NCBI GenBank assembly: GCA_011800155.1
Contig: CM022378.1
Coordinates: forward strand, 310,001-374,000
Source of the DNA: Flammulina velutipes
Lineage: Eukaryota > Basidiomycota > Agaricomycetes > Agaricales > Physalacriaceae
Direction of reading: 5' to 3'
Length of the DNA stretch: 64,000 bases
Shown in pieces: positions 14,760 to 63,541 of the stretch (positions are counted from its first letter, which is position 1; each line of letters starts with the position of its first letter). The notes under the pieces are model-generated. The model saw only the letters and a list, made by a program, of their open reading frames with translations. It was not told the DNA's origin and ran no database searches. The translations under genes were made by a program, and so were the position numbers.

Positions 14760-14965
14760 TGATACGCCTTGTAATATTTGGATGGGCAAAGACCCCATAT
14801 TTTGCGATTTGGTACAAGGCAAACCAGGCAGAATGGACATAGGAAGAAGGCATTATGGACGGAATATACCACTCCACACCAGGCTAGCAGTACGGAGAAG
14901 GTCCTTGTTACTGGGACTCATCCTTGGAACCTTGAAGTCATGCACTGGTTCAGCCAGGCAATCGA

Positions 14966-14984
14966 CCCCGCTCTCGAAGCGGGA
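14966..14984. repeat. GC hairpin of the A family (LTR copy)
   Basis: CCCCGCT-CTCGA-AGCGGGA. This is one of many dispersed hairpins with a CCCGCT/AGCGGG stem and variable loop. It is present in all four A-family LTRs of the window. Confidence 0.75.
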
Positions 14985-15396
14985 GGAACCTAAAAATACA
15001 ATACAAGTAACTCGACTGAGGTTGATCAATAAACCAGTACTCAGTCTTGCACCCGCCCTCGTGTCGGGTACTTAGAAATAAGGATCCCACTCTTCCAAGG
15101 ACAGTTCACGAACCACCCGCCACACTTGGACGGACTTAGCCACCAAAACGCAGAGGACGGAGATCGACCATCGAATCCATCAAAGGCATGTTGCGTCATG
15201 AGTCATGATCTCAGGGGAAGTAAACCTTATTCCTGAGTCACGCTCTGACTCCCTGGATCTCATCAATATAATCCAGATCGGGCAGATCTCCCAGATCGAG
15301 CACAGAAACCCAAGTCCCTCTGTTGGATAGCATTCGGGCTCTGCATAGGAAGTACAAGAAGCACTGTAGAACCCACCTAGGAGTTGAGCCGCCAAC

Positions 15397-15726
15397 ATGA
15401 CGGGCCCGATTCCTGGGCGGGGCATTATTGGAAATAAGGACTCTCTATCGAGAGAGGAAAAACACAAGGCAACAGGGACCATGCGGGTGCTAATTGAAGG
15501 CCCGCGCGGATCGCCTAAGAATGGAGAGATACACATGGAACAAGCATGCCAGCTGACCTTGGATCACTCAGGAGCTGTGTACCCGCGCGGTACGCCACTC
15601 CTCATTGGGTGCATCCAGGACAAATACCTGGCTAAGAATGATGAAGGCCATATGGCCCAGGGCACAACAAGGTTCACGGGGCCCGCCAACGTGGCGGCCG
15701 CTCCTGTGGCGGGTAAAATACAGTAA
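15397..15726 (+). other. 109-codon open frame inside the A1 LTR
   Basis: Begins MTGPIPGRG and ends VAAAPVAGKIQ; repeated in the 3' LTR at 62487-62816. In both A2 LTRs the first ATG is absent (ACG instead), leaving an 81-codon version from the second ATG. No recognised domain; its C-terminus is encoded by one of the family's GC hairpins. It may be fortuitous. Confidence 0.25.
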
Positions 15727-16362
15727 ACCAACTTTAGTCACGCTCTTTAGAAATACCTATATAATACGCTCGTTAGCATACTGTAAACTAGCTTAGACCC
15801 CCAGTAGACGCAGCCCACAAAGCAGTATTTACCGTCGGTTAGCTCGATAGGATTGAATAGAAGTTCTGTCACATAGGTGACTTTGAATCTGAAAGCAAAA
15901 GGAACTTAGAGCCATTGGAGCTACTTTGAGGAATTGAAGTTTAGCCATTGCCTGTGCCATCGACGTTCCCGGCGCTGTCTCAGAACAGTCATCTAACCAC
16001 TTGAAAGAATCTGATTGGAAAACCCAGTCCCCGTTGAGTGTGGTTTAGACTGCAGCTAAGCTATCGTTTTAAGCCGCGGACAGAGTCCGTTGAGTCTTAG
16101 AGCATTAGATAGATACCAGGGTATCTGGACGCAGACCTCTTAGCGTGGTTGAAGATTGACGGACCGGTTGGAGCTTTATTAAGTCTGCCTCACGCATCCC
16201 AATCGGCCTGTGACTCTTGTTGGCCTCTAGTTTTCAACTAAAGATCAGATCCCTGTTACCCCTCGAACTTGTTATACATTTTGAACCGTTGCAATCGAAC
16301 CCCCATACCTTCCCGAAACCCCAAAGACCAGTTCATCGAACTCTAAACAATTAAAAGCAGAC

Positions 16363-16377
16363 CCGCTATCGAAGCGG
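16363..16377. repeat. GC hairpin of the A family (LTR, near U5 end)
   Basis: CCGCT-ATCGA-AGCGG, preceded by AC. Same motif type as the copies in coding sequence. Confidence 0.75.
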
Positions 16378-16456
16378 ACTTGCATTTCCACGCCTACTTG
16401 TTAGTGTGTGTGTGTGTGTGATTTGGTGGTGTTCTTTTGCACTGCTCATCATATTT

Positions 16457-16474
16457 TGGAGCCCACCGCGAGGG
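16457..16474 (+). other. A1 primer-binding site
   Basis: TGGAGCCCACCGCGAGGG begins 5 nt after the 5' LTR. A TGG start complementary to a tRNA 3' CCA end is expected here. The tRNA identity was not determined. The same sequence lies next to the A2 5' LTR (about 50835-50852, minus strand). Confidence 0.6.
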
Positions 16475-16995
16475 GTGATAAATTTGACTTAGTCGATTCT
16501 TCGTAAAAACAAGAGTTAACAAGTTATTTCTACACCCAATCCAAAATAGCCCCAAAAGTCAAGCCAACCGCTAAGTTGTCGGAAACGCCAACTAGTCAAA
16601 GCTCAGCTTTAGAACAACAAAACAACCGTAGAGCGAACTTGGGTGAAAACTCAGGTGCTCCAGTTGTAAGGAGTCTACGCGAAAATCGTCCTAAACCAGG
16701 CGATCTATTCAACGGATATCCAGACGAACGCAGACCGCGTCCGCCAAACAAAAAGCCTAAAAAGCTACCACCCGACGTAGTGTCGGAACCAGCCTATCCC
16801 CCCGGATTTATATTATCCACAGTCCCGCTTTCGAGTCGTCTTCCAAGACTTTTACCAAGTCCAATACCCCGAAGACCTCACACCCCTTCACCAAACGAAC
16901 TTAGTCCGTTTGCAGACCGATTTGATCTCGATCAAGTCCACCCGCTATTTGAGAAATTTAGACAGGCTGTACCTTTAGGACAACCTCTATTCCCA

Positions 16996-18417
16996 ATGGC
17001 AGATCAGGAAAACAACAACGCAGGAGGGAACGCGGGCCAAGCTGCTGGACAGCCAAACCTAGCTCCCGTTAACAATTTCGTGAACCAACTTAGTGCGCAA
17101 ACACAAGCGGAAATTGCGGGCAAGAAACTACCGGCGCCTGGAAGTAAAGATGCCCCCCGCTTCAGAGACGGGGGAATCAGAGAATACTTCATGGGACTGG
17201 AATGGATCTACTCAGTAAACCGCGTAACCAACCCTCAAGTTCAGATCGAAATTGCAGGAGTCTATGTAGACTATGACATACGGAGACAGTGGGTCGCCCT
17301 ACCCGAATACTCGGCGGGTGACTGGTTAGCATATAAAAAGGCCATCCTTAAGCTATACAATAAGGGTGAGCAAGATCAAGAATATACCATGCGAGAGGTA
17401 GAAGAACTTTTGACGCACTACAAGGCGCGTCCCATAGGCTCAAAGGATAGAATGATGGAGTTCCGCCGAGAAGTCGTGCACAAACTTCAATATCTAATCG
17501 ATATTGGAGATGTCACTCAGAAATCGGTACTCGATCTAGTCCAGCAGTGCTTTGTGGGACCCGCTTGGGCGGCGATCTACAATGATTTACGAGCGATCCC
17601 TGTCCCTCCAAATAGACCGCTGGGACAGCGGTGGACTCTAGGCGAAGTCATTAAAGTCGCAGAAAAGTACTTAGAGGAAATAGAAACGTTCGGTGGGGCC
17701 CCAATGAGAACAGGGAACACGTACGAACGAGAACTCATTTCCCCGTCAACAACGCGGGTCAAGATCGAAGATATGCATGACCAAGTTGCCAGCATCAACT
17801 CGTTGGCAGATACACTCAAGGCCATCGAGAAGGCTCGACAGGACGAAATGAGGGAGTTAGAGAAAGTCCGACAGGAAGAATCCCGCAGGTTAATGGCTAT
17901 GATGGATAGGATGGGAACTCGACAAATACAAATGCAGAGTTACCCTACTGAACATATGGGGAACTATGTGCAACAAAACACGTCGTACCAAGCCCCTAGA
18001 CCTCCAATACAGCCTATGCCAAAAGGAATACTTCCTGTCCCGGCGAACTTTAACCCGTCACGTGCCCGCTCCCTTAGCGGGAAATGTTATTTCTGCGACG
18101 AACATGGGCATTTCCTCACAGAATGCCCTGAGAAGAACAAGTTCGAGAAAGAAGGCTGGATATATAAACCAGGAAACTCCAATTGGTACTTCACAGCCGA
18201 TGGAATTTCGCTAAGCAAGCGTAAAGATGGCATGTCTCCAATGGAACAAGTACTTAAGTACATTAGAGAACATGGTCCCAACCCACCCGCTAGCGCACAA
18301 AACTACGAAGGGCTATTTCAGGAAGACTTCTTTCCTCCGACTGAACAGATAGATCGGACGGTTTTCCTTCAACAGCAGATGATCGACCCCACCTACTTGC
18401 AGGAGGGTTTCGATTAG
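16996..18417 (+). CDS. A1 Gag
   Basis: 473 aa from the first in-frame ATG (MADQENNN). The frame is open upstream to 16507 without an ATG, encoding a Pro-rich stretch, so a non-AUG or spliced start is possible. It contains a capsid-like helical region and an Arg/Glu/Lys-rich coiled segment. A perfect CCHC zinc knuckle CYFCDEHGHFLTEC (CX2CX4HX4C) starts at about residue 364. It forms the particle and packages RNA. The zinc knuckle follows a GC hairpin (18065-18081) that encodes part of the basic linker. The frame is intact, unlike the A2 copy, which has a 1-nt deletion. Confidence 0.85.
   Translation: MADQENNNAGGNAGQAAGQPNLAPVNNFVNQLSAQTQAEIAGKKLPAPGSKDAPRFRDGGIREYFMGLEWIYSVNRVTNPQVQIEIAGVYVDYDIRRQWVALPEYSAGDWLAYKKAILKLYNKGEQDQEYTMREVEELLTHYKARPIGSKDRMMEFRREVVHKLQYLIDIGDVTQKSVLDLVQQCFVGPAWAAIYNDLRAIPVPPNRPLGQRWTLGEVIKVAEKYLEEIETFGGAPMRTGNTYERELISPSTTRVKIEDMHDQVASINSLADTLKAIEKARQDEMRELEKVRQEESRRLMAMMDRMGTRQIQMQSYPTEHMGNYVQQNTSYQAPRPPIQPMPKGILPVPANFNPSRARSLSGKCYFCDEHGHFLTECPEKNKFEKEGWIYKPGNSNWYFTADGISLSKRKDGMSPMEQVLKYIREHGPNPPASAQNYEGLFQEDFFPPTEQIDRTVFLQQQMIDPTYLQEGFD
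18065..18081. repeat. GC hairpin inside gag
   Basis: CCCGCT-CCCTT-AGCGGG, read through in frame just before the zinc knuckle. Confidence 0.7.
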
Positions 18418-19679
18418 GCTCGAGGACGGACGGGGGTTCCTCTGAGTTACTACTTAAGAGAACTGCCCCTCCTGAGAGCCAGAATACTATTCGTAGTACT
18501 CGAAGCCATACTGCTAAGGAAAGAGAACCAGTTATACCCAATATACCCAATATACCCAAAGAAAACCCGATAAAGCCCGGCCCCACGAAGGGACTTAGAG
18601 TAGAAGTAGTGTTGCCTAGTAGACCTAAGAAAGTTCAGTTCGTCGCACCTCCTGAAGAGGAAGAGCCAGAACTGAGTGATCTATTGGAAGAAGTATTGGA
18701 AGGACCGGAGCCCGCTATCGAAGCGGGTCCCGCTAAGAAACGGACAGAGGCCGCTATCCCGGCGGTTTCTGTAGAGGAAGCAGAGAATGCTCCCCCAAAG
18801 GAAGAGAACAGTACTCCAAAGGAGCAGGAAAAGCACAAAAGCTATCAGCGCATTTCGAAGCTCAAGGACCTCCTACTCAGAAACCCTGGTTGGAGATCCC
18901 TTTGGAAGACACTCCTTCCAGAGGAACTTCTTGCCACGAACGAAGCCTGGCAGAAGGATTTGCTAGAGAATCTCAAAGCAAAGAATGTTAAAGTTAACAT
19001 TCAACAAATGTCTGAATTAGACTCAGGCAGCGGGCCCGCTGTGGAAGCGGAGTATCACCAAAGTGAAGACCCACGATATTACTCAGTAAATCTACAAGAT
19101 ACAACCCAGTTACCACTAGGGTCTGTAGTAGTGCACGACTTAGTCGAGCAACTGTTTAATCATACTGGCTACACGGGTCCGTATCAGATGCCACGCACCA
19201 ATGTTGCGTCCGAAAGTGCTGATCTCAGAACTCTCTGGCCAACGATTGGCGGGGCAGGAAAGAAAGAGAGCCTCCTAGATAGCGGGTCGCAAATAGTGTC
19301 TATGTCACTTAAGGCCGCGCTAGAGTTAGGCGTACCTTTCGATCCATCCTTTTCCATCACTATGGAAAGTGCAGACAAGGGTCAGACCAAGACAGTGGGA
19401 CTGGCAAGGAACTTGGCGTTCGATTTCGGAGGAATCGTATATTTCCTTCAAGTACACATCATTAGGGATCCAGCGTATGAAGTACTACTGGGCAGACCCT
19501 TCGATGTAGTATCTAGTATTAATACATCCGTACTGCGAGATGGAGGAGTAGTTGCTACCATTACTGATCCTAGTAATGGAAAACGACTTACCCTCCCGAC
19601 ATACAAGCGGGGGCAAATGCCCCGCTACCAACAACAACCTGGCACCGGACCGGTTTTTCCGGAGCACTCGAGGAATTGA
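18345..19679 (+). CDS. A1 protease region (pro), -1 frame relative to gag
   Basis: Open frame overlapping the end of gag by about 73 nt in the -1 frame, with no useful ATG, so it is presumably reached by -1 frameshifting. An acidic, Glu/Pro-rich N-terminal part precedes the retropepsin active site LLDSGSQIVS (about 19276-19305), flanked by the usual hydrophobic strands. It matures the polyprotein. GC hairpins at 18711-18727 and 19034-19050 are translated as PAIEAGP-like and GPAVEA-like peptides. It ends in TGA at 19677-19679, overlapping the pol frame by about 100 nt. The same arrangement occurs in A2, so it is the family's design rather than decay. No canonical XXXYYYZ slippery site was found. 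Confidence 0.75.
   Translation, partial: TDRSDGFPSTADDRPHLLAGGFRLGSRTDGGSSELLLKRTAPPESQNTIRSTRSHTAKEREPVIPNIPNIPKENPIKPGPTKGLRVEVVLPSRPKKVQFVAPPEEEEPELSDLLEEVLEGPEPAIEAGPAKKRTEAAIPAVSVEEAENAPPKEENSTPKEQEKHKSYQRISKLKDLLLRNPGWRSLWKTLLPEELLATNEAWQKDLLENLKAKNVKVNIQQMSELDSGSGPAVEAEYHQSEDPRYYSVNLQDTTQLPLGSVVVHDLVEQLFNHTGYTGPYQMPRTNVASESADLRTLWPTIGGAGKKESLLDSGSQIVSMSLKAALELGVPFDPSFSITMESADKGQTKTVGLARNLAFDFGGIVYFLQVHIIRDPAYEVLLGRPFDVVSSINTSVLRDGGVVATITDPSNGKRLTLPTYKRGQMPRYQQQPGTGPVFPEHSRN
18711..18727. repeat. GC hairpin inside pro
   Basis: CCCGCT-ATCGA-AGCGGG, identical in core to the LTR hairpin at 16363; translated in frame. Confidence 0.75.
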
Positions 19680-20930
19680 TCGACGATCAAGGAGAGGTGG
19701 CTCTAGTAGTTGGACAAGCAGAGAATGGTGAAATACAGATCGAGCGCACCTTTGTGCCAGAAAAATCCCGTCAGACGTTTGATAGTCAAGCATTAACCAG
19801 CTTGTACTTGTCTCAATCCTCCGATGGTGTTAACAAGGCCGCTAAAGCATTGCGGAATGGGTTTCGTTATGGAACAGCATCGGGTATGTCCACTTCGGAC
19901 CACCCGCCAGGAAGTCGGGTCTTGTTACCCCAAGTCCGACTAGACTCGGATTGGACTTTAGAGGAGGTCGAACAATATCAGCCAGTAACGGTGAACTTGT
20001 TCGACTCCGTCCCTCGAGGACTTGAGAAAATACTTCAGCACTTGACAGTTAGTATTCCACAGAAGGAACTCACTCTCTCACAGCAAGAGTATTTAGACTC
20101 GAGAAAACGGGAATCAATTCCCAGACAGGTCTTAGCCACTAAGAAATACAAACCAGTTGCATTGAAAGTCAAACCCCACTTGGGAACCTTACCCGAAGAG
20201 TTCAGGATCATCCGCAATATTGTCGGGGATCCACTCGAAGGCATGTTGGAGTTAAATCCCAACCCGCCAAGCTTCACTCCGATGGGAAGATACACAGAAG
20301 AACGACGTGAACAAGTCCAAAGAGACCATGTCGGGGATTTTCTGTGGCCTCAAGAAAGGAATTTGATCGACGACTTGATGTGTAAACAGAACCAAGGCTT
20401 TGCCTGGGAAGAGACAGAGAAAGGAAGGTTTCGAGAAGACTTCTTTCCACCTGTAGATATGCCAGTAATACCACATGTACCATGGGTATTGAAGAACATT
20501 AAAATCCCACCAGGGATTTTTAATGAAGTCTGCGCTATCATTAAAAACAAGCTAGACTCAGGCGTATATGAGCCCTCGAACTCCTCATATCGCTCGAGAT
20601 GGTTTTGCATGGTCAAGAAGGACGGCAAGAAACTTCGACTAGTACATAGTTTGGAGCCGCTAAATGCCGTCACCATAGCGCATTCTGGTCTACCACCCGC
20701 TACCGAAGAGTTAGCGGAGGCATTCGCAGGAAGAGCCTGTGGAGGGACTTTGGACTTGTATGTAGGGTATGATGAGCGCCACTTGTCAGAAAAATCTAGA
20801 GACATGACTACCTTCTCAACACCCTATGGGGCGCTGCGCTTGAAGACCTTACCCATGGGATGGACGAACTCAGTTCCAATATTCCATGAAGATGTCACGC
20901 ATATTCTCAAAGATGAAATCCCGACATATA
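19577..20930 (+). pseudogene. A1 reverse transcriptase, N-terminal part (cut by A2)
   Basis: Pol frame, -1 relative to pro, open from about 19577. RT fingers and palm are recognisable: WFCMVKKDGKKLRLVHSLEP, then GTLDLYVGYDERHL, then TPYGALRLKTLPMGWTNS. The frame stops making pol sense at 20930-20933 (TSD ACGC), where A2 begins. The protein continues at 52554, where the very next codons give RPYIDDVPV. The intact-order copy in A2 confirms the join. RNA-dependent DNA polymerase by family. Confidence 0.9.
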
Positions 20931-21584
20931 CGCTGATGAGCAGTGCAAAAGAACACCACCAAATCACACACACACACACACACTAACAAGTAGGCGTGGA
21001 AATGCAAGTCCGCTTCGATAGCGGGTCTGCTTTTAATTGTTTAGAGTTCGATGAACTGGTCTTTGGGGTTTCGGGAAGGTATGGGGGTTCGATTGCAACG
21101 GTTCAAAATGTATAACAAGTTCGAGGGGTAACAGGGATCTGATCTTTAGTTGAAAACTAGAGGCCAACAAGAGTCACAGGCCGATTGGGATGCGTGAGGC
21201 AGACTTAATAAAGCTCCAACCGGTCCGTCAATCTTCAACCACGCTAAGGGGTCTGCGTCCAGATACCCTGGTATCTATCTAGTGCTCTAAGACTCAACGG
21301 ACTCTGTCCGCGGCTTAAAACGATAGCTTAGCTGCAGTCTAAACCACACTCAACGGGGACTGGGTTTTCCAATCAGATTCTTTCAAGTGGTTAGATGACT
21401 GTTCTGAGACAGCGCCGGGAACGTCGATGGCACAGGCAATGGCTAAACTTCAATCACTCAAAGTAGCTCCAATGGCTCTAAGTTCCTTTTGCTTTCAGAT
21501 TCAAAGTCACCTATGTGACAGAACTTCTATTCAATCCTATCGAGCTAACCGACGGTAAATACTGCTTTGTGGGCCGCGTCTACT

Positions 21585-21917
21585 TGTGAGACGGCGGTAA
21601 TCCGAGTCTTCGAGGATTGAGGTCGCGTCTCGGTCCAGGCGGGAACTCTGTCTCCCGATGCCGGAGTGGAACGCGTTAGTAGTATCGAACGATACGGTGA
21701 AGACTTAACAAAGTCTTCGAGCAGTCTTGAGCAACCCGGCGATACGCAAGGGGCTGCGAAGCAGACTGATGATAGTTCGAGTTAGAAAAGAGTGTCCATT
21801 TATTATGTAATACATTGCTATATACGCTCGAAGCTGTGCTTCGTTATTTTATGTACTGACTATTCGAAGATGATAAGAACTATGTACTGATACTAGTAAG
21901 TGTTTAGAAGTCTCACA
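21585..21917 (-). repeat. Element B 3' LTR
   Basis: 333 bp, identical by eye to 33168-33500. Its ends TGTGAGAC and GTCTCACA are inverted repeats of 8 bp. Confidence 0.95.
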
Positions 21918-21929
21918 TTCCCCCCCCAT
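21918..21929 (-). other. Element B polypurine tract
   Basis: Minus-strand ATGGGGGGGGAA immediately before the 3' LTR and 14 nt after the ORF2 stop. Confidence 0.75.
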
Positions 21930-21942
21930 AAAATAATGTCCG

Positions 21943-24798
21943 CTAATTCCCTCCATTCTTTGTCAATTCCTCCGTTACATCTTGAATGGACTTCCAATTC
22001 CACCGCCCTCCATAGGATTTCGTGCATAAGCTCCCGGCTTCCTCCATTATCGAAAACCACGGCGTCTTGCAGCCTTTCTCGTTCCTGAAAAATTGGCGCC
22101 ATTGCGTCCGGGTTCTAGTCCTGACTTCGTTTTTCTCGATGGATTCGGCAATAGATTGCATACTACGAAAAAATTGACTCTCCCAATGACCGGGAGCCCA
22201 GAAGGGTAAGCCTCTCTTTCCTTCGCTACGTTTGTCATTCTGTGGATCAGGGCGTATCCAATTCGGTAAAGGATAGATAGAAGCGCCTTCCGATCCGTCG
22301 TTTCTATCTCGAAATCCCGTGGCTAGCTTTATCAATTCAAGAGATGGCTCGTTGATCCATATCCGGTCGCTTGAATTACTCAGCGGATCCGGACGCCACG
22401 ACCCTGTCTGAGTCGAAACTCCTTCAAAATAAAGATCCACCAAGTTTGGTATATGAGATCGAACGACGAAATTCGTGACTCCCCCCATGCCTAGTAAAGA
22501 TGACGCTGAATCTAAGGTTCCCAATTCTTTGAGTCTCGCAAGATATTCCTTGGCACAATCTGGGCCTTGATGATGGAGGAAAGCGTGGTTCGGATCGATC
22601 CCTTGATGTCGAAGCCATAACTTGATGTCTGAATCTTCCGGTCCTGACGGGGGCGGCTTTCTTTGCATTGAGGCTAGGTCGCTGCGCCTGCATCCCAATT
22701 GTAATGGCATTCCGTGCTCGATCATTGCTGTCACCAGATCGTTGGCCGAAGGGGTGTTCCTGCAACGAGACGCCCAGATCTTGAGGGCTATCTCTCCCGC
22801 CGTGCTGGTGATCATCACTGCCTTTCTGACCAAGGTTGTATTGAATGGTCGTAGCTTCTCCGGTAATTTCCATTGGCAGAAGGTTGAGTAGTACTTATGT
22901 TCGAACTCCTTGAATTTTATGATTGTCTCGTCATCTGCGAGGCGCCAAGACATAGCGTTCGACGTCTCTTCGGGCGTAAGAGATTGATCAAAGGTGTTCC
23001 ACTCAGAGGAGCTGGCTTCGGTCGCTATTGGCGGATCAATGATAAGATCGACAATATTGGAGTTCGGCAAGGCACGTTGGACACTTCCCATAGCTCTCCA
23101 GAGCATCCTGTTGGCTGCGGTGTCTTTGACTTCGCCTTTCAAGCGTCCATATTCCTTTCCCAGACGCACTCGAATCATTTTCTTCTTGTCTTTTGAAGCG
23201 ATCTCTTTTTTCTTGGGGGCTTCCGAATTGTGAGCCCACATGGAGGAGTCTGAGGGTTCGTTTGTTGGCGGGCTTGCAAAAAGATCACCATGACCCGCAG
23301 ACGCCATCATATTTTCCACTTGTCCTTGGCGTAGTTCGTTGAGACGCCATTCATGACTAGGAGGTATAATGTGAAGAAATAGAAGGCGATCATACTCGAG
23401 AGGAGGGTAGTAAGGTAGGGCCGCCAGGGACGCTTCGTGACGTAACTGCGGAGGAGCGTGGATTGATACCTCAGGATGAAATAAACCGAAGTAGAACCAT
23501 CGAACATAGAGATCGACTGTCCAGTACACAGACAGGAATTCCCATGGGCAGATAAGCTTAGAGAAAAACTTTCGCGTTTCTCCTTGGGGTTGAATCAGGT
23601 TTCCGTACGGTCTTTGCGCCCAAGCGATGTATGACGGACCCTCAATGTCAGCCCTGGATTGAAGAGTAACTTGGAAGTGTCGAGCTAGCACGTTCCATTC
23701 TGCATTTGAGGTCACGGGCAAAGGATCCCATCCACTAACGAAGGCGAAGTAAGCGTTCGTCAATCCGTTGTTAAGCTTGACGATATTCAACGGGATTTCC
23801 GATTGCCTCGGATGGGGTACTACCTCCACTCTGCTTAGCGTGGAATCGAATGATGTAACTGAACGTATTTCCCCAGCCAGTTGCAATGCGAGGTCACTTT
23901 CCTGTAATCGGTAGCCCTCTTCTTCACATTCTCCGGCGAACTTGACTAGTCTGGCCAGGTAGACGGGACTCCACCGCAGATATCTGATGTCTTCTTGCAT
24001 GATACGGGTCCAAGGGTATGCGAATCCGATTTCGGAGTGGATCAGGAGATTAAGATCTATTCGATGCCGATCCCGGGCCATATTGAGTAATACCCCCCGA
24101 AACGTCAACTTCTCCAGGTCCCATTTCTTGACGCGTTCCACCGTTAGCGCGGGTAGATGATGCCACCATTTGCTGGCAGGGCGATATAAGTTCGAGTATA
24201 ACCTCCACCAGTTGAAAATCCCTTGACCTCCCCAATAGAACACTAGAAACCTTACGTACGCGAAGGATATATCCTGTATGGAGAGATATGATTGATCTAA
24301 GACTTCGAACGAGGGGCATGCAGGGACAGGAGCGTGCGGGGGAAACAACGAAAGCTTCTGCAAAGCCTCGATATCGTCGCGCAGTGCGAGGCAATCTCGA
24401 CACATTTCCTCGATTAGCCATTGAGGAAGCCGGAAGGTGCCGTCTGCTTCCACGTCGGTTTCGTCCAAAATGTCATCCGTCTTCCCCACTTGATACCATT
24501 TTTCCCCGATTTCGTGATAAGTTGGTTGGAAACATCGCCACCAAGCTCGGCGTTCGAGGAAAGCTGGAAGCTTAGCTAGAAAGACGGGATCGTTGGAGAC
24601 GGAACTAGCACTTGATATTCCCATCACCGGATCATCCTTGGGTTGGCGGTGTAGCAACATGTTCCAAGGAATGTCGAAAAGCTTGAGTTTTCCAACGGCT
24701 GTCCAAATGGCGTTCCCAATGATGGCTCCGTGGTATCGAGGGAATGATCCGTCATTGAGGCGGTAGGTGAATGCAGAAAAAGAGTTGTGGAAGGCCAT
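21943..24798 (-). CDS. Element B ORF2, unknown 951-aa protein in env position
   Basis: ATG-initiated (MAFHNSFSAFTYRLNDG), uninterrupted, 273 nt downstream of the pol stop. Function not recognised. It is rich in Trp, Arg and Pro with mostly globular-looking sequence. A Lys-rich linker (KKKEIASKDKKK) sits near residue 530. The second half has repeated HPN/LWLRHQGIDP-like helical segments. No signal peptide, obvious transmembrane segment or furin-like site is visible, so it does not look like an envelope protein. No zinc knuckle or Walker motif either. Its intactness beside identical LTRs suggests it is maintained. It could be a structural or accessory protein, or a captured host gene. Confidence 0.7.
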   Translation of the reverse strand: MAFHNSFSAFTYRLNDGSFPRYHGAIIGNAIWTAVGKLKLFDIPWNMLLHRQPKDDPVMGISSASSVSNDPVFLAKLPAFLERRAWWRCFQPTYHEIGEKWYQVGKTDDILDETDVEADGTFRLPQWLIEEMCRDCLALRDDIEALQKLSLFPPHAPVPACPSFEVLDQSYLSIQDISFAYVRFLVFYWGGQGIFNWWRLYSNLYRPASKWWHHLPALTVERVKKWDLEKLTFRGVLLNMARDRHRIDLNLLIHSEIGFAYPWTRIMQEDIRYLRWSPVYLARLVKFAGECEEEGYRLQESDLALQLAGEIRSVTSFDSTLSRVEVVPHPRQSEIPLNIVKLNNGLTNAYFAFVSGWDPLPVTSNAEWNVLARHFQVTLQSRADIEGPSYIAWAQRPYGNLIQPQGETRKFFSKLICPWEFLSVYWTVDLYVRWFYFGLFHPEVSIHAPPQLRHEASLAALPYYPPLEYDRLLFLHIIPPSHEWRLNELRQGQVENMMASAGHGDLFASPPTNEPSDSSMWAHNSEAPKKKEIASKDKKKMIRVRLGKEYGRLKGEVKDTAANRMLWRAMGSVQRALPNSNIVDLIIDPPIATEASSSEWNTFDQSLTPEETSNAMSWRLADDETIIKFKEFEHKYYSTFCQWKLPEKLRPFNTTLVRKAVMITSTAGEIALKIWASRCRNTPSANDLVTAMIEHGMPLQLGCRRSDLASMQRKPPPSGPEDSDIKLWLRHQGIDPNHAFLHHQGPDCAKEYLARLKELGTLDSASSLLGMGGVTNFVVRSHIPNLVDLYFEGVSTQTGSWRPDPLSNSSDRIWINEPSLELIKLATGFRDRNDGSEGASIYPLPNWIRPDPQNDKRSEGKRGLPFWAPGHWESQFFRSMQSIAESIEKNEVRTRTRTQWRQFFRNEKGCKTPWFSIMEEAGSLCTKSYGGRWNWKSIQDVTEELTKNGGN

Positions 24799-33148: not shown

Positions 33149-33166
33149 TCACCTGAACGTCCACCA
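33149..33166 (-). other. Element B primer-binding site
   Basis: Minus-strand TGGTGGACGTTCAGGTGA starts one nucleotide after the 5' LTR. tRNA partner not determined. Confidence 0.5.
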
Positions 33167-33167
33167 A

Positions 33168-55159: not shown

Positions 55160-55673
55160 GGAACAGATGGTGCGGACACCATCTATTTTCCTTGGTAGGG
55201 GATATAGAGGCGTTATATAGGCCAAAATTTTAAATTTTGTTAAGATTCATTATCAGCCGCCTATATAGCGGGCAATCAGAACACCCGCCAACATAGCGGG
55301 TGGAAATCGGAAATCGGCACGAGTCATGGAGAAGGCACGTGACCAGTCACGTGACAAGACGCGTCCAAAACCAATCAATAGAAGACTGGTTGCCAGGCAT
55401 AACAGCGCTAAAAGACAAGGAGGTGTCGGCTTGTATAAGGCTAGTAAGAAGACAAGAAAAAATGGAGCTCAGGGACTCAACGGGACCGAGACAGACGGAA
55501 GCGAACAAGAAAGAGAACAAGGCATCAATAGCAATCCAAAAAGGGAAGAAATTGACTCGCCTGGGATGTTTTGATGGGCGATCCATTAAACACCGGACCG
55601 GACCCCGGTAGTGTGAGAAAGAGGGACTTTAATGTTACCCTCTTTCTCTTCAACCACCACGTTCAAGTCGAAC
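55160..55673 (+). promoter_or_regulatory. A1 pol-accessory spacer: candidate internal promoter
   Basis: Holds an 8-bp-stem hairpin AGATGGTG-CGGA-CACCATCT (55165-55184), GC hairpins around 55252-55303 (including CCCGCCAACATAGCGGG), and two CACGTG boxes 12 bp apart (55336-55341 and 55348-55353). A GTATAAGG sequence lies at 55433. It precedes the ATG of the sense accessory gene at 55674 and could drive it independently of the LTR. The direct evidence is motifs only. Confidence 0.45.
55283..55300. repeat. GC hairpin with compensatory-type stem change
   Basis: ACCCGCCAACATAGCGGGT. One of several copies in which the T:A closing pair of the stem is C:A or C:G instead. Confidence 0.65.
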
Positions 55674-57695
55674 ATGTCCGCGCCCGTCTCGCCCTCGTTG
55701 CTCTCGCCTGCTGCTGCCTCGTCTGCCCCCGACCCCGCCGCCGCCGTACCGCCTGCACCAGAGCCTACCGCTACCATGTCGCCTGCACTGGAACCTGCCG
55801 CTACCGTGTCGCCTGCGCCTGAGCCTGTCTCCACTGTCTCGCCGGCGCCCGTGTCCCCGATAGCGGAACCAACCGCGGTGCAGGAAACGACAACACCGTT
55901 GTTCTTGCCAGCACCGTCCGAGGCAAGCTCGCCGCAACCAGAGGAACGAGCACCTACGCCGCCACCAAAGTCACCAACCCCACCAGCCAGCTCGGCAGCG
56001 ACGCCCATGTCTCCAAGCGTGTTGGACAAGACGGAGTCAGGCATGACAACGTCGGATGACGCGTCGGCGACGCGTCAACCAAGTCCAGCACGCGTGGAAA
56101 CTTGGTCAAGTTACGAGGCAGGAAGGACGACGACTCTAGGCCTGGACTATGCGTCCACGGAGGTCGAAGAAGACGAGGACGAGGAGGTGGACGAGCTAAT
56201 GAGCACGTCCTCTCCAGAGCCAAAGGAAAGGGAGGCGACGGGATCTACGGGAGGTGAACCTCCTGCAGATCCAGATCGCGACGACGGTCTCACCGCCGTC
56301 GAGATCGATTTCGCGAGGGCGATGCCCCCTCCTGTCCCGCAGTCGCCACCAAGACTGCCACTACGTCTGGATTCGCCGCCGCCGATGGCAGGATCGCTGT
56401 TTGGGCCAACGTGGTTCCCAGCGCCGATACCGCCACCGTCGCCGCAGCCCTGGCTGCAACCGACCCCACCAACGACGACCCCTCCCCCACCATCCCCACC
56501 TGTCGCGGGAACGCCTCCAGCGGCAACAGGAACACCGCTGGATGAACCACCGGCCATGTTATCACCCCGGATCTGGTCGCCGCCAACGGGAACTCCACCC
56601 AGGATGACGACGCCTCCAGAAAGGGCGCCCTCCCCACTGCAGCCAACAACCTCGACGGCTTCCAAGCCCGTTTCGAAGAAACGAAAGCTGGGAAGGCCCG
56701 TCCAGGGAGAATCGCCGAAGAAGAGAACATGGGGACCGGCAATTCTCAAGACGCCTGCCTGGGTGCCGGTGTCGAAGAAGAGGAAGGAGATGGAGACTGA
56801 GGAAGAACGAGAGGACGACTCAGAAGAGTCGAGGCAGCCGAATCCGCCCAAGAAGCGGATAAGGCTCACCAAGAAGAGACCAGAGCTGGTCAAGGCGAAG
56901 GTTAGTTTTTCTACTTGGATAAACCAAGTAGATGAGACTAACCAAGAAAAATAGAAACTGCCGACAGCCGAAGAAGTGGCTCTCGCCGCCCAACGAGCGG
57001 CTCGAGCAGAGGCCCGAGAGGCCAAGAAAAACAAGTCGGCCGCCTCAACGTCGGCCCCGCCTGAAAGCCGGGCACGGATCGCCAAACCCGCCTCGCAGCC
57101 GGTGGCCTCGTCGTCGAAACGAAAACTCGACAACGACAGCGCGGAGCCGCCGAAGAAGAAGCGAAAGCCAAGGACAGTCGCAGTCAACCCAACTGGGCGT
57201 CGGCCCATGCTCCCCGCCCGAGACAAGCACGACCCCTTCCACCACCAGCAAATCCTATGCCGGAAATGCTTCAAGAAGGGTATCCACTGCAAGTTCGAAG
57301 GCTCGAACCGTTCGTGCGTGGAATGTGCATACACCAAGAAGGGGTGTTTGAAGCTGGATCCAGAGGATCCATGCCTCCTCAAGGACGAGGCCCAGCTGCG
57401 CGTCGAGGAACTGGAGAAGGAGGTGGCAACACTGAGGGACAGGTTGACAACGCTCGAGGAAACCGTCAGGTTATCGGAGGCCGTTATCCCGAACCTCGAG
57501 GCGGCGCTGTCTATCATCCTGACCGGTGGGGACACGTCGGAAATCCTGCGCAAGTTGGAGCGAGGAAACCACGACTATGACGACGACGACGACGACGACG
57601 ACGACGAGGAGCTGGAAGACCCGAAAGGGAAAGGCAAGGCAAAGGCCCCCGCTAAGAAGAAGGGGAAAGGCAAGGGCAAAGGCAAGGAGAGGTAG
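55674..57695 (+). CDS. Retrotransposon-borne Zn2Cys6 zinc-cluster protein
   Basis: Two exons, 55674-56900 and 56955-57695 (1,227 + 741 nt, 655 aa, phase-0 intron of 54 nt). Residues 1-110 are Pro/Ala repeats (PAPEPTATMSP-type), ~185-200 are acidic (EVEEDEDEEVDE), ~215-330 are again Pro-rich, and basic NLS-like stretches follow (KKRKLGRP, KKRIRLTKKR). Exon 2 carries C511-X2-C-X6-C-X8-C-X2-C-X6-C540, an exact match to the fungal Zn(II)2Cys6 binuclear cluster pattern. A heptad coiled coil (about 553-600), a Glu/Asp run and a Lys/Gly tail (KGKGKAKAPAKKKGKGKGK) follow. By family this is a nuclear DNA-binding regulator, probably dimeric. Its target is unknown; the element's own LTR is a natural candidate. 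Intact in A1. A longer start at 55632 is in frame but is not an ATG shared with A2. Confidence 0.85.
56901..56954 (+). other. Hairpin intron in the Zn2Cys6 gene
   Basis: 54-nt GT-AG intron. GTTAGT at the 5' splice site can pair with ACTAAC (candidate branch site), and CTACTTGG pairs with CCAAGTAG, so nearly the whole intron folds. The A2 intron (39438-39490) keeps both stems with different spacers. Confidence 0.7.
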
Positions 57696-57717
57696 GGACT
57701 TGGGCAGGCCCAAGTCC
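57696..57717. terminator. Perfect hairpin immediately after the Zn2Cys6 stop codon
   Basis: GGACTTGGGC-AG-GCCCAAGTCC, a 10-bp stem beginning one base after TAG; largely conserved in A2. May act in RNA 3'-end formation or stability. Eukaryotic terminators are not normally hairpins, so the function is a guess. Confidence 0.35.
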
Positions 57718-58356
57718 ATTGGACTCTAAATAACGGACTGGACGTTTACATAGAAAAACGGGACTTAGTACGACAGAATACGGACTGCTTACGTACTGTA
57801 TTTTCTTCGGGCGTTGGAGTCGTCTCCTTTTCTTTGGGCCTTCGGGCAAAAATTATATATATATGTGGCTTTAATATATAAATCAAAGGGCTCATACTAT
57901 CTTGGATAAAAGAGAGACTGAGAATAAGAAACCGCTAAGTCGTCGGGCATCTAAGAAAGCATGAGAAAGGCAAGAAAATAGGCTGCGCCACACAAGGAAT
58001 GGGCACCCGACCCGATAGCGGGTCGGGTCTTCGGACTCTAAGTGGTTCATTCAACAAATGCATTGAGTGAACTAGCAAAAACTATAAGAGATAAGCGGGA
58101 CGTCAAACCATATAAGTCAAGGGGAGACGCCCGCAAACGAAGAAGTAAATAGGATCTAAGTGAAAAATTGGACTTAGAGAAATATAGAAGAACAAAAATA
58201 GCTACTCAAAAGCGCCGCTATGACTAGGGCATTGGAAATAAGAAACAAACAAGTCACAAAAGAAGTTAGAGAAAGTCGGGAACACCCCAGTACTCGACAC
58301 AGGACTCATCAGGATACTCGAGGGGAGCGCAAAAGCACATACGCTCGCCACACTTG
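57718..58356. other. Convergent intergenic region in A1
   Basis: Lies between the 3' ends of the sense Zn2Cys6 gene and antisense gene 2. A/T-rich (TATATATATATG near 57856). Contains the 24-bp perfect GC palindrome at 58005-58028. No gene seen. Confidence 0.5.
58005..58028. repeat. Extended GC hairpin, A1 copy
   Basis: Perfect 10-bp arms ACCCGACCCG/CGGGTCGGGT around loop ATAG; same in A2. Confidence 0.8.
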
Positions 58357-59515
58357 TTAAAATGTTTCTGCAATCGATACCAGGTCGTCAGCAAACAAAG
58401 GATAGCTCGAGAAAAAGCTAAAGGCACCAACAAAGACCATAGAAGGTGGAGCTTGATTCCCCGCTTCGATAGCGGGTCCCGAAACGGGAGCGGCCGCTAC
58501 CATAGCGGGGTCAGTCAAGACAGACTGGGCCACCTCCACAGCGACTGGATTACCCATCCAAGCGACGGTGTGAGGAGGTGGAACAGAAGCTGAAGGAGCA
58601 ATGGGATTGGTAGTTTCGTCGAAGTCACGATCCGAGGCTAACACGGGAGCGAAGTCCAAGTGAGCAGCGAGACCCGTTGTGATAACGCGCTCGTACATGA
58701 TAGGACGAGTATCGCAGAAACGAGGGAATCGATTAACCGCTAAGAAGCGGGGCCACCAAAGGACAAGCGCCTGGTCGACGGGGGACAATTGACCCAAGGG
58801 AAGGGGCAAGTTGTTCACTACATCGTAGTTGGCAACGATCCCTCCCAAAGAGTCCTCAGCCCCAAGGTGAAAACCAAGGAGAACGGACGTCTGACAAAGA
58901 TACATTAGACCTCCGACTGGAAAGCGGGTGAACCAAACGTACGGCGAAGTCACCCAATGCCTCTTCCATCATCTTAGCAAAATACCGCTCGGGATGACGG
59001 AAGCAGGCGGGGATGAGGTCTTCAAAGTGAAGACCATCGAGTACCACGGAACCCCGCCGCATCCCAAACCAGTTAGAAACAAGACGAAGGCAGCAGACAT
59101 ACAACAAAGCAATGTTGTAGGCCTGACCCGTCTTGAGGTCGGGATCTTCGATCTCCCAGATAGCCATCGAGCGAATCTATATCTAAGTCAGAACTAGGAA
59201 AAACAGGGGACAGAAGACGAAACCCACCAAACATTGAATCATGAAGCGCAAAGTGGGTGCGTCGAGCATTTCGCTCACACCCAAGGACAAGTCCTCAGTT
59301 GGGGAAGTATGAAAGGAAGAAAGATCCAAGACGTCGAAAGGCGTGGCCACGATAGGGAAGCTAAACGTAGCACGGTACATCGACAAGGCCACAGCTAGAC
59401 CCGCTTCAGCCTCTAAGAAACCGACGGCTTGACGGGAAAAGCGGTCAGAAAGGCCTGGGAGAAAAGCAAGCTTGAAGTTGGTCCAGGGAGGGATTAACGC
59501 AAGATTCTGCTCCAT
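58357..59515 (-). CDS. A1 antisense gene 2, unknown 351-aa protein
   Basis: Three exons on the minus strand: 59515-59228, 59176-58943 and 58890-58357 (288 + 234 + 534 nt = 352 codons), with introns of 51 and 52 nt, all phase 0. Starts MEQNLALIPPWTNF. The centre is globular and hydrophobic (AYNIALLYVCCLRLVSNWFG, LVLWWPRFLAVNRFPRF). A Pro/Ala stretch near residue 310 is encoded by GC hairpins (PVSGPAIEAG). No recognised domain, signal peptide or catalytic motif. It lies antisense to the retroelement, 483 bp downstream of antisense gene 1 in the same direction, and convergent with the Zn2Cys6 gene. The A2 copy has several frameshifts. The exact exon arithmetic makes a real spliced gene likely; function unknown. 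Confidence 0.75.
58459..58477. repeat. GC hairpin inside antisense gene 2
   Basis: CCCCGCTTCGATAGCGGGT, followed at 58478-58510 by further overlapping GC inverted repeats; coding for the Pro/Ala stretch. Confidence 0.7.
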
Positions 59516-59998
59516 GTTGGATAAGGATTCGAGAGGACACTGCGAGTTTATAAAGGTGCGCGCCCGCTATACTATCGGGCCCCGCAATAACAAACGGATC
59601 CGCAACGGCCATCGAATGCAATGAGGCAAGGCTTTACCACACGGCTACGCTGAGTAGTATTGCCAATACGACGACCTAGAGGGTGCGGATGGACACCACC
59701 AAGTGACCTTCCACCAGGATATGCGCAGGGACTTAACCACCCGCTATCAAAACGGGTCAAGGACAAAAATTAGGCCCCGCCAACATGGCGGACAGGAACT
59801 CTATCGTGTAGATTCAGTTGGTGGCACAGCGAGACATGAGGCAAAACATATTGCAAATTCAGAGTCTAGTTACGAGGCGAATGATGAACTAAAGAGGGAA
59901 TACAGTAACTAGCTGCAACAGGGACGTGCCCAACGAACTACAGATCACGGAAAGAGTATTGAGGGATCTACAGCGGAATGTCCAAATCGAAGTGGAGA
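59516..59998. promoter_or_regulatory. Spacer between antisense genes 1 and 2 in A1
   Basis: Non-coding, 483 bp. Contains GC hairpin sequences (near 59565-59582, 59740-59757 and 59775-59792). Likely carries the 3' end of gene 1 and the promoter of gene 2; no box identified with confidence. Confidence 0.4.
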
Positions 59999-61622
59999 CT
60001 AGTCTAGCAAGGACTTCACGGTGCCTACATACAGATCCTTGGTACGATTGAAAGCCTGGATCTCACCGTGGACATGGTTCAAGATCCGAACCAAGTCCAA
60101 GCGGTAGGACTGCTCCGTCGACAGAAGTGAAGCACTAGCCTCACGAGGGAACTCGTCGAGCTCGGCAAGGCGATTAACCTGCTTGAGCACGCGAACGACC
60201 GACGAAGCGTAGCTCTGAATAATAGGACCCGCTAACAAAGCGGACCCGCCAAGTTAGCGGGTGTACATCGAGACTAAGACAACAGGCTTACCTCCAGCAA
60301 GCTGGTCCAGGAAAGCCTGGTCGATATGGAAAGACGAAGGCTTAGGACTCTTCCGGGGACGACTAGAGTTCTCGGCAGTAGCCTTGCGCTTATGAGCAGC
60401 GGGAGCAGGTTCGACGAAGTTCACGGAAGAACCCAGAATGTCTAAGGCCTTCTGGTATTCCCGGGAAGAAGTCAGCATACCTGGGACGAACGCGTAGGGA
60501 AGGTAAAATACCGTGCGCTTCGAGTCCGAGGGAGGCGACTATGAACAAGTCAGCACCCAAAGTAGAAAAATCAGCCCGAGTCGGAGACATTACCTCGAGA
60601 GGAACCAAGTCGGTACCAGTAACACCGTTGCCGTCGATAATGGACAAATCCTGCAAGGGGACTGTCAACGAGTCCAAGTCTAGAAAAATCGTGAAATAAG
60701 CTCACGTCGTCCGAAGCAAGATCGGATTCAGACAGACCGTCGTCCATATCTTAGCGAAAGAGAAGGCGTCGGGGTTAAAACACAGATTGTGAAAGTTGGA
60801 GAAGGGGAACTTACCACAGTCCTCAGGAGGAGGCATAGCCGCTTCCCCAACGGCCTCCAACTTCTCATCGATCACCGCTGGCGACTTAACCGTCTTTCCA
60901 CCCTAGGAAAACGACTTAGAAACCAGAAACACAGTAAGGAAACAATAGCGTACCTTCTTAGCAGCGGGCTTGCCCTTAGGAGGATCCTTAGGGATATCGA
61001 CCTTTGGAGCCGCCTCCTTAGCGGGTCCTTTTCCTTTCGAGTTAAAGGACCGCTGGTTGAAGTGCAAAGGGTGAAAGTCGGGCAACTTAGGCGCTATGAA
61101 GTCGGTGTGTCGACTAGTGACTGCCGTAAGAGGCGTGAACACGCCAGCAAGATTAATCCGCGGGAGTTGAGGATTAACCCCCAACTCCAGCAGGTAGCAA
61201 GCTAGCCAGTTGCGAACGTTATGAAAGAATGAATGGATTTCGGCCGTCGCGGTAGCGGTCGTGCGATTAGCCAAAGATAGGTTAACAACCTAACTTGGGT
61301 TAGACACGCACGAACATAGAAGAATAAAGGCACTCACCAATAACTTGGGAAAGAAGCGATCGAGAGAGTCCACGCGGGCTTCCAGAGCGATACCCGGCGT
61401 GTTAGACGAACGAACGATGGCCATAATCGGTCCAGAAAGTTGTTCGATCGCGTCCTTGATGACACCCTCGACATGAGTGGGGACCGCGTAGTTCATAATG
61501 AACTCAGAGATAGCGGGTCCCAGCTCCGCACGAAACTGCGTAACCTCAGGCGCAACGGTCACTGGATCGACTGCCAGCAGTGGGCGAATAGTAGTCCAGT
61601 GCGGGGTTTTAGGAGGAGCCAT
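59999..61622 (-). CDS. A1 antisense gene 1, unknown 424-aa protein, six exons
   Basis: Exons on the minus strand: 61622-61338, 61289-60954, 60902-60815, 60679-60594, 60538-60292 and 60231-59999. They total 1,275 nt = 425 codons with consistent phases and GT-AG introns of 48, 51, 135, 55 and 60 nt. Starts MAPPKTPHWTTIRPLL. Residues 1-170 look helical/globular; 180-215 are Lys/Pro-rich (KGKGPAKEAAPKVDIPKDPP). A basic, NLS-like HKRKATAENSSRPRKSPKP lies near residue 320, and the C-terminal ~90 residues are predicted helical (YASSVVRVLKQVNRLAELDE). No known domain recognised. Transcription would run antisense to the retroelement from just inside the 3' LTR. The acceptor of intron 5 lies within a GC hairpin. 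An alternative exon around 60700-60750 would break the frame and was not used. Function unknown; a nuclear role is only suggested by the basic segment. Confidence 0.78.
60227..60262. repeat. Double GC hairpin spanning the intron 5 acceptor of antisense gene 1
   Basis: Two adjacent hairpins of the A-family type. The TTAG of one right arm (TTAGCGGG on the minus strand) is the 3' splice site at 60232. Confidence 0.7.
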
Positions 61623-61837
61623 TATGCAGAAAAGACAGAAGTTGGATAAGAGTTGTAGTGGACGCGCCAACGAAGCGGCGCGCCTACAACAGCTTTTAAG
61701 CCAGGACTTAGAATAACCAGATCGGGCCCGCTTCAGAATCGGGTCGATCTAAGTAGAATCCCAATCTGGAGTTATACGATGACCCTGTACTCTACCAAAG
61801 GTAGCAGGCAGAGGATGTCGGGGACGACATCAAATAA
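61623..61837 (-). promoter_or_regulatory. Candidate promoter region of antisense gene 1
   Basis: Sequence between the ATG of antisense gene 1 and the polypurine tract. It contains a strong GC palindrome near 61664-61687 (GCGCCAACGAAGCGGCGC) and a CCCGCTTCAGAATCGGG hairpin near 61727. Transcription into the gene would start here or in the adjacent LTR. Confidence 0.4.
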
Positions 61838-61849
61838 GTCAAGGGGAGA
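61838..61849 (+). other. A1 polypurine tract
   Basis: TCAAGGGGAGA directly before the 3' LTR; the same sequence sits next to the A2 3' LTR. Confidence 0.75.
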
Positions 61850-63541
61850 TGATACGCCTTGTAATATTTGGATGGGCAAAGACCCCATATTTTGCGATTT
61901 GGTACAAGGCAAACCAGGCAGAATGGACATAGGAAGAAGGCATTATGGACGGAATATACCACTCCACACCAGGCTAGCAGTACGGAGAAGGTCCTTGTTA
62001 CTGGGACTCATCCTTGGAACCTTGAAGTCATGCACTGGTTCAGCCAGGCAATCGACCCCGCTCTCGAAGCGGGAGGAACCTAAAAATACAATACAAGTAA
62101 CTCGACTGAGGTCGATCAATAAACCAGTACTCAGTCTTGCACCCGCCCTCGTGTCGGGTACTTAGAAATAAGGATCCCACTCTTCCAAGGACAGTTCACG
62201 AACCACCCGCCACACTTGGACGGACTTAGCCACCAAAACGCAGAGGACAGAGATCGACCATCGAATCCATCAAAGGCATGTTGCGTCATGAGTCATGATC
62301 TCAGGGGAAGTAAACCTTATTCCTGAGTCACACTCTGACTCCCTGGATCTCATCAATATAATCCAGATCGGGCAGATCTCCCAGATCGAGCACAGAAACC
62401 CAAGTCCCTCTGTTGGATAGCATTCGGGCTCTGCATAGGAAGTACAAGAAGCACTGTAGAACCCACCTAGGAGTTGAGCCGCCAACATGACGGGCCCGAT
62501 TCCTGGGCGGGGCATTATTGGAAATAAGGACTCTCTATCGAGAGAGGAAAAACACAAGGCAACAGGGACCATGCGGGTGCTAATTGAAGGCCCGCGCGGA
62601 TCGCCTAAGAATGGAGAGATACACATGGAACAAGCATGCCAGCTGACCTTGGATCACTCAGGAGCTGAGTACCCGCGCGGTACGCCACTCCTCATTGGGT
62701 GCATCCAGGACAAATACCTGGCTAAGAATGATGAAGGCCATATGGCCCAGGGCACAACAAGGTTCACGGGGCCCGCCAACGTGGCGGCCGCTCCTGTGGC
62801 GGATAAAATACAGTAAACCAACTTTAGTCACGCTCTTTAGAAATACCTATATAATACGCTCGTTAGCATACTGTAAACTAGCTTAGACCCCCAGTAGACG
62901 CAGCCCACAAAGCAGTATTTACCGTCGGTTAGCTCGATAGGATTGAATAGAAGTTCTGTCACATAGGTGACTTTGAATCTGAAAGCAAAAGGAACTTAGA
63001 GCCATTGGAGCTACTTTGAGGAATTGAAGTTTAGCCATTGCCTGTGCCATCGACGTTCCCGGCGCTGTCTCAGAACAGTCATCTAACCACTTGAAAGAAT
63101 CTGATTGGAAAACCCAGTCCCCGTTGAGTGTGGTTTAGACTGCAGCTAAGCTATCGTTTTAAGCCGCGGACAGAGTCCGTTGAGTCTTAGAGCACTAGAT
63201 AGATACCAGGGTATCTGGACGCAGACCCCTTAGCGTGGTTGAAGATTGACGGACCGGTTGGAGCTTTATTAAGTCTGCCTCACGCATCCCAATCGGCCTG
63301 TGACTCTTGTTGGCCTCTAGTTTTCAACTAAAGATCAGATCCCTGTTACCCCTCGAACTTGTTATACATTTTGAACCGTTGCAATCGAACCCCCATACCT
63401 TCCCGAAACCCCAAAGACCAGTTCATCGAACTCTAAACAATTAAAAGCAGACCCGCTATCGAAGCGGACTTGCATTTCCACGCCTACTTGTTAGTGTGTG
63501 TGTGTGTGTGATTTGGTGGTGTTCTTTTGCACTGCTCATCA
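61850..63541 (+). repeat. A1 3' LTR
   Basis: 1,692 bp, same length as the 5' LTR and about 99.5% identical by eye. Followed by TSD CCGG (63542-63545). Confidence 0.93.

Follow-up and report, generated by a model that had tools for sequence, protein, structure and literature searches.

A 17.2-kb fungal Ty3/gypsy retrotransposon carries dense CCG-N9-CGG dyads and a gene for a predicted Zn2Cys6-like protein that may read them

How transposons discriminate between self and host and escape silencing is an open question outside a few systems such as the VANDALs of plants, which are MULE DNA transposons. The closest described system is that of Arabidopsis, where a VANDAL encodes its own DNA binder, VANC, whose motif is described as lying mainly in non-coding tandem repeats (PMC5735166). 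Here, we describe a family of long terminal repeat (LTR) retrotransposons, family A, represented by two copies (A1 and A2) in a 64,000-nucleotide stretch of the Flammulina velutipes genome (contig CM022378.1, G000:C13:310001-374000; hereafter the window), and compare it with a sister family, B, and with further copies in the 38.1 Mb (23 contigs) of genome searched. Downstream of pol, the element carries an extra block with one sense and two antisense spliced genes (a1 and a2), and its entire length is strewn with inverted CCG and CGG triplets separated by nine bases. We somewhat favor the explanation that A and B belong to a Ty3/gypsy lineage with an old 3' block, in which the sense protein would be a family-specific DNA binder acting at body-wide sites, with a VANC-like anti-silencing role. 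One retrotransposon holds a fixed-geometry, body-wide DNA code along with a candidate reader, and, because codes and readers differ between A and B, the pairing can be tested in vitro.

A sequence-only reading had placed in the window two giant LTR elements of about 17.2 kb, with 4-bp target-site duplications, and an additional 6.7-kb block comprising the three spliced genes; self-comparison with exact ends confirmed the boundaries, duplications and coordinates, and the block was found as described. The features of A1 on which the argument turns are the following.

14968..63467, no strand: 63 CCG-N9-CGG dyads (56 counting one LTR), across all A1 features
55250..57950, no strand: hypervariable island, with mean pairwise identity of 71-92% per 150-bp window among 12 copies, and 94-100% from 57950 on
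55674..56900, plus strand: sense gene exon 1, with proline-rich, acidic and basic stretches resembling nuclear localization signals; start codon picked by eye; hypervariable
56901..56954, plus strand: sense-gene intron, GTTAGT...AAATAG
56955..57695, plus strand: sense gene exon 2, with a six-cysteine Zn2Cys6-like motif at about 57257-57349, a coiled coil and an acidic/basic tail
58357..59515, minus strand: antisense gene a2, three exons, of which exon 3 is 58890-58357; exon 1/2 junction uncertain
59999..61622, minus strand: antisense gene a1, about seven exons, with exon 1 at 61622-61338 and exon 2 at 61289-60954; later junctions placed by eye

The CCG-N9-CGG dyad occurs 63 times in A1 and 62 times in A2 but three times in the remaining window, and 100 dinucleotide shuffles of A1 yielded a mean of 3.95 dyads and a maximum of 9. 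The A1 excess is confined to the 9-base spacer, with none at 8 or 10. Among the 1664 combinations scanned (64 trinucleotides at 26 spacings), CCG-N9-CGG ranks first in A1 (63 vs 3.2, z 33.5), in A2 (62, z 33.5) and in the main B stretch (38, z 17.2), which contains more than one copy, such that its dyad counts are not independent. It also ranks first in the B stretch on C13 (z 6.1) and joint first, with N10, in that on C4 (z 8.4); family B is enriched for N10 and CGG-N6-CCG as well. In three control stretches, the dyad does not appear in the leading ranks, and no enrichment was detected in the LTR element nested in A2, the remaining window or eight other reverse transcriptase (RT) loci. Like that of VANC, the motif is concentrated in its own family and scarce in other sequence, of which about 66 kb was covered.

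Dyads are present in every A1 feature, including LTRs, coding and non-coding DNA, at 2.4-6.2 per kb, and occupy all three codon phases of the sense-strand frames, unevenly (15, 6 and 6). Their spread by tandem repeats was set aside, given 55 distinct spacers among 56 dyads and flanks that are not shared. In A, C is preferred beside the triplets and CTA-like bases inside, and in B, T is preferred outside; of the 21 sites in A gag-pol, just one falls at the position of a B site, so the two families gained their sites independently. Taken together, one-mismatch forms do not exceed background (65 vs 60 expected), an argument that the exact dyads are maintained. Within the island, N9 dyads are common to a mean of 5.7 of the 12 copies and most other spacings to 1-3. 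Everted CCG/CGG triplets with a fixed spacer are a Zn2Cys6 type of site. In family B (L039+L040+L047), chains of the form CCG-N9/10-CGG-N5..7-CCG were also observed, 14 of them with at least three half-sites, and none in A1; the half-sites would sit about two helical turns apart.

Exon 2 of the sense gene encodes the motif C-x2-C-x6-C-x8-C-x2-C-x6-C (x9 in B), with a coiled coil after it; this is the six-cysteine spacing of Zn2Cys6 proteins, C-x2-C-x6-C-x8/9-C-x2-C-x6-C. None of the six cysteines varies in any of the 11 aligned rows, which come from A, B and a third group and have 36-95% identity to the first row; protein searches returned six relatives of the sense gene in public data, two of them 63-64% identical, as a third group. 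A trimmed B segment scored 23.1 bits against Pfam Zn_clus, and the third group 14-18 bits. AlphaFold was confident in helices only, chiefly a long helix (145-189) after the cysteines. A PDB profile search returned six rows, none significant, among them PPR1 (E 2.4), which is a Zn2Cys6 regulator. Because the Zn_clus match is borderline and the cysteine fold has low confidence, we use the label "Zn2Cys6-like" only; a dimeric DNA-binding protein of this Zn2Cys6-like kind is the most likely product of the sense gene.

By their splice ends and by selection, the genes look genuine. The sense gene has one intron and both antisense genes have several; at the four introns checked, GT...AG persists wherever the intron is present, in 13 of 13 copies or, for one intron, in 12 of 13. 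Across copies, the length of the sense intron is 53, 54, 55 or 60 bp, and the same lengths recur in the 6 of 12 blocks in which both sense exons are open to their expected ends, which fits splicing. Among copies, dN/dS, the ratio of nonsynonymous to synonymous (dS) divergence, is 0.04-0.23 for exons 1 and 2 of a1, exons 1-3 of a2 and the sense exons, and the accessory genes are under purifying selection. The sense exons alone give 0.11-0.20, so the sense protein is constrained; broken or cut frames were left out, such that 8 of 13 copies (12 blocks and A2) contributed to exon 1 and 9 of 13 to exon 2. We infer from the survival of the sense intron through many rounds of retrotransposition that the genomic RNA escapes splicing or that the sense gene has its own promoter; the antisense introns are not removable by splicing of genomic RNA. 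No Pfam match was obtained for the a1 and a2 exons, nor an NCBIfam match for sense exon 2 and the a1/a2 frames. A protein database search returned two relatives of a2 (97% and 68%), neither with a named function, and for a1 a single row at 99% that bears no mark of its source, the form in which the window's own proteins appear.

Across the genome, at least 42 LTR matches were found, 38 of them full length, a lower bound with 40 of 133 candidates scored. The 30 LTRs compared are 97.6-100% alike, and in eight copies the two LTRs agree at 98.8-100%, which marks some insertions as recent. For the block, 38 matches were found, and 12 of them span at least 6 kb; nine of these 12 extend into an LTR match (one via a further block piece), and the other three into none among the LTRs scored. 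Three copies extend unbroken from one LTR through to the other, their coordinates spanning 17.09-17.26 kb (C12:522891-539991, C8:664032-681289 and C9:666821-683914); flanking 4-mers are equal in two of them, and C12:522891-539991 has GCGT vs CCGT. Near-full matches are 97-99% identical to A1 in gag-RT and 96-99% in RNase H-integrase, and the block is 89-93% identical to that of A1 in the 11 other copies of at least 6 kb.

Family B is 73-74% identical to A in RNase H-integrase DNA and 80-83% in integrase protein. Its copies on C5 and C4 possess the block genes in A's order and orientation, at 26-34% for the conserved part of the sense protein, 45-48% for a2 and 34-51% for a1 (hits of exon queries a1e6, a1e7 and a2e1 left out of the block-gene comparisons with B and a further family, C); one of the four B stretches, that on C13, departs from B sequence once the sense gene has begun, and the antisense genes were not seen there. 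Being common to A and B, the block is older than their split and not a recent passenger; it is evidently an old part of the element. Recent capture of cargo was set aside, given the sharing of the block with B and at least 12 block copies. In the one copy examined of the more distant family C (39% in integrase), no block homolog was detected within about 9.6 kb after the integrase, a stretch that includes a fold-back insertion and in which the LTR was not placed. The sequence-only reading had expected many copies with the accessory block at the same place, as is the case for the 12 long copies and for B, and had named as its refutation full-length relatives lacking the block, with a clean insertion junction; none was seen in a limited search. 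It had called the family "cargo-bearing or self-regulating", of which the dyads and the Zn2Cys6-like protein would favor the latter.

The sense gene differs from the rest of the block in its diversity. Windowed identity falls at about 55250 and recovers at about 57950-58250. Between A1 and A2, dS is 0-0.07 in gag-pol and 0-0.09 in four antisense exons vs 0.47 and 0.78 in the sense exons; over all copies, the sense exons give 0.52 and 0.70 and the antisense exons 0.03-0.10. Divergence is not even along the copies, the sense gene exceeding the rest by far, and the predicted co-divergence of LTR, pol and accessory genes holds for the antisense genes and not for the sense gene, which is decoupled from its flanks. 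The island recurs in family B (pairs B2-B1 and B2-B4), with 75-93% identity inside vs 97-100% before and after it. Similarity of the island is uncorrelated with that of the flank (66 pairs, r 0.09, Mantel p 0.19), one copy pair having 99.7% identity in the flank and 83% in the island, and the share of transitions is 0.60 in the island and 0.87 in the flank; this points to old lineages exchanged between backbones and not to recent mutations. Island alleles form groups of near-identical members. These observations fit best with old allele lineages of the sense gene recombining onto a recently swept backbone; as guesses, the alleles might be kept by silencing that depends on sequence similarity or by competition among copies. 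A mobile element that was recently swept elsewhere along its length holds old diversity here, a further puzzle within reach of population sequencing.

A CG is central in the four bases adjoining the LTR in 48 of 48 external flanks, 35 from A (from 30 LTRs, about 20 separate insertions by our own count) and 13 from B (the external ones among 20 chosen edges). At the window's CG frequency of 0.057, the probability of this is about 10^-26 for 21 events, if independent. None of the 48 has T before CG, and CG is no commoner in A1 than in other stretches. Targeting of insertions to the dyads was rejected, as the nearest dyad to the A2 insertion begins 230 bases before it. The exclusive use of CpG targets hints that an LTR integrase follows a simple rule of sequence.

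In the explanation that we favor, a dimeric, Zn2Cys6-like sense protein would recognize CCG-N9-CGG across the body of its own family, coat the copies and keep them transcribable; the antisense genes, perhaps transcribed from the 3' LTR, may supply partners, and the element would mark its own copies as "self", perhaps escaping silencing. Binding of the dyads by the sense protein is the likelier part of this proposal: a reader co-evolving with its sites, as with VANC, agrees with the kinds of protein and site, with the density of the sites, with flanks particular to each family and with the independent gain of sites in A and B. That the benefit would be anti-silencing rather than plain activation is a tentative choice guided by the VANC analogy. 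Equally tentative is the fuller picture of a complete "self" recognition system, in which the Zn2Cys6-like protein, dozens of sites, two antisense partners and CpG targeting would be joined by ancient recombining alleles maintained through an arms race against host silencing or through competition among copies.

Several observations weigh against this explanation. On the protein side, two B copies fall just short of the Zn_clus cut-off of 21 bits (20.2 and 20.9), the family A segment gave no match to this model, the cysteine halves seem swapped in order relative to it (judging from partial matches), and pLDDT, the AlphaFold confidence score, is about 39-48 in the cysteine region. On the DNA side, rarity outside the element was judged on about 66 kb of other sequence; 15 of 27 sense-frame dyads share one codon phase, so coding preference may add some of them; CCG-N9-CGC, one of the near forms, is overrepresented (11 vs 3.1); N10, N11 and N16 dyads in the island, at few sites, are common to 4-5 copies; and in the 30 LTRs the dyad cores are not clearly more conserved than other positions, 1 of 42 core positions being polymorphic (11% of spacer positions and 4.6% of all others are) and the mean minor-base frequency being 0.0063 in cores vs 0.0074 in the rest. 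The VANC motif is described in non-coding tandem repeats (PMC5735166), whereas the dyads here lie in coding and LTR DNA without repeat structure. Finally, hypervariability of the sense gene only is not directly explained by an anti-silencing role.

The strongest competitor, although we consider it somewhat unlikely, is that the sense protein acts at the dyads as an ordinary activator or copy-number repressor, without anti-silencing. Zn2Cys6 proteins are commonly regulators, there are seven sites per LTR and others lie between and within the antisense genes; the spread of dyads over gag-pol coding sequence, however, exceeds the needs of a promoter. A more distant alternative, which we rate as unlikely, assigns the dyads to a host Zn2Cys6 regulator or chromatin factor exploited by the element, the sense protein doing something else. 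Fungi have many Zn2Cys6 regulators, the Zn_clus match of the sense protein is borderline, and its binding of the dyads is what we infer; yet such a factor is at odds with the lack of dyad enrichment in the nested LTR element, the remaining window and the eight other RT loci, and B, with its T- rather than C-flanked dyads and second spacing, is as expected if site and protein changed together in each family. The dyads are inverted repeats, some with longer matching arms, and might be DNA cruciforms, or RNA hairpins that signal packaging or export, rather than fixed-geometry protein sites, but the restriction of the A excess to the 9-base spacer makes this very improbable, and RNA hairpins were set aside because variants that allow G-U pairing show no excess (5 vs 9.2 expected).

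For the block as a whole, it could be argued that it consists of host-derived passenger genes without benefit to the element, given that library and database matches name no function and that a host source of the genes was not searched at the protein level; its presence in both A and B, purifying selection and at least 12 copies leave this reading hardly any probability. Local hypermutation of the sense gene, in place of recombining old alleles, would account for an island that is sharply bounded and recurs in B. Against a mutator stand the transition share, which indicates an older mix than in the flank, the groups of near-identical alleles and the decoupling of island from flank, and on these grounds it was set aside as improbable.

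The remaining architecture supports the assignment to Ty3/gypsy: the LTRs, of about 1.69 kb with termini TGAT...ATCA, begin with TG, end with CA and are flanked by a short (4-bp) target duplication, and the order is protease-RT-RNase H-integrase, with RNase H and integrase over the Pfam cut-off and protease and RT below it. A1 consists of 14760-20933 and 52554-63541 (6174 + 10988 = 17162 bases), interrupted by A2; its target duplication is CCGG/CCGG, and its 5' and 3' LTRs are 99.6% identical. A2 (20934-52553, minus strand) lies within the RT of A1 with the duplication ACGC/ACGC. Its 3' LTR is in turn interrupted by an 11.9-kb LTR element at 21585-33500 (identical LTRs of 333 bp; duplication CTACT), which has a 2579-amino-acid frame with RT and no dyad enrichment, and a fold-back element lies within A2 at about 39500-42082.

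14760..16451, plus strand: A1 5' LTR, 7 CCG-N9-CGG sites
16507..18417, plus strand: A1 gag-like open reading frame (ORF), zinc knuckle CCHC, E 0.0016, under the Pfam cut-off
18345..19679, plus strand: A1 protease ORF, Asp_protease_2, E 0.00023, slightly under the Pfam cut-off
19577..20933, plus strand: N-terminal part of A1 RT, truncated by A2, RVT_1 E 0.014, under the cut-off
20934..52553, minus strand: A2 with two nested insertions, LTRs at 20934-21584 + 33501-34549 and at 50858-52553
52554..53696, plus strand: C-terminal part of A1 RT and RNase H, RT_RNaseH_2, E 2.9e-17, over the cut-off
53618..55159, plus strand: A1 integrase ORF, Integrase_H2C2, E 3.3e-16, over the cut-off
61850..63541, plus strand: A1 3' LTR, 7 CCG-N9-CGG sites

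Nesting was also observed elsewhere. At G000:C8:361308-382661, a full A copy (CCGA/CCGA) lies within another A LTR, a second self-insertion after that of A2 in A1. At G000:C5:582111-630755 (L039, L040, L047, L056-L061, L068), B elements are apparently nested in one another, the outer copy flanked by GCGT/GCGT and an inner one (595160-626260), which contains two B pol stretches, by ACGG on both sides. Recombination between LTRs with inversion is suggested at G000:C12:670792-692082 (L011-L013), where the flanking 4-mers GCGG and ACGC are swapped between a lone LTR and an oppositely oriented full copy close to it. The fold-back element in A2 is 84-86% alike to a 2.8-kb kind with long inverted arms (L048; e.g., G000:C10:1036019-1038825), found at no fewer than about 40 genome places among the matches listed, and has the 9-bp repeat TCTGGCACC at its ends. 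Identical 238-bp direct repeats at 5262-5499 and 10658-10895 of the window flank an RT frame (7681-8142) and probably delimit another young LTR element.

Among known retrotransposons, Grande, RIRE2 and Retand of plants resemble A and B in having extra sense or antisense genes between pol and the 3' LTR, as described in PMC7264820; set against that description, the present elements, from another kingdom, have three genes on both strands, a Zn2Cys6-like protein and body-wide dyads. The Boty-like elements of Botrytis are, judging by title, fungal LTR retrotransposons with one extra antisense gene, brtn, compared with a1 and a2 here. Fungal DNA transposons with TET/JBP dioxygenases share the proposal of a self-carried gene that counters silencing, but these are described as DNA transposons with a methylcytosine enzyme (PMC12730594) and the present candidate is a sequence-specific binder. 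In the literature searched (titles and abstract openings, largely open-access), no fungal LTR element was recognized that has a Zn2Cys6 gene, inserts at CpG targets, or carries a hypervariable gene or an anti-silencing binder, and the combination described here seems to be new for an LTR retrotransposon within that literature. As LTR retrotransposons, A and B do not belong with the VANDALs, which are marked by a MULE transposase and MULE ends, and the likeness of the sense protein to VANC is one of description. It extends to a short motif that abounds in its own family and is scarce outside it, whose type differs between related families, and to a protein that combines conserved with highly variable regions, as described for VANC (PMC5735166) and as seen in the sense protein.

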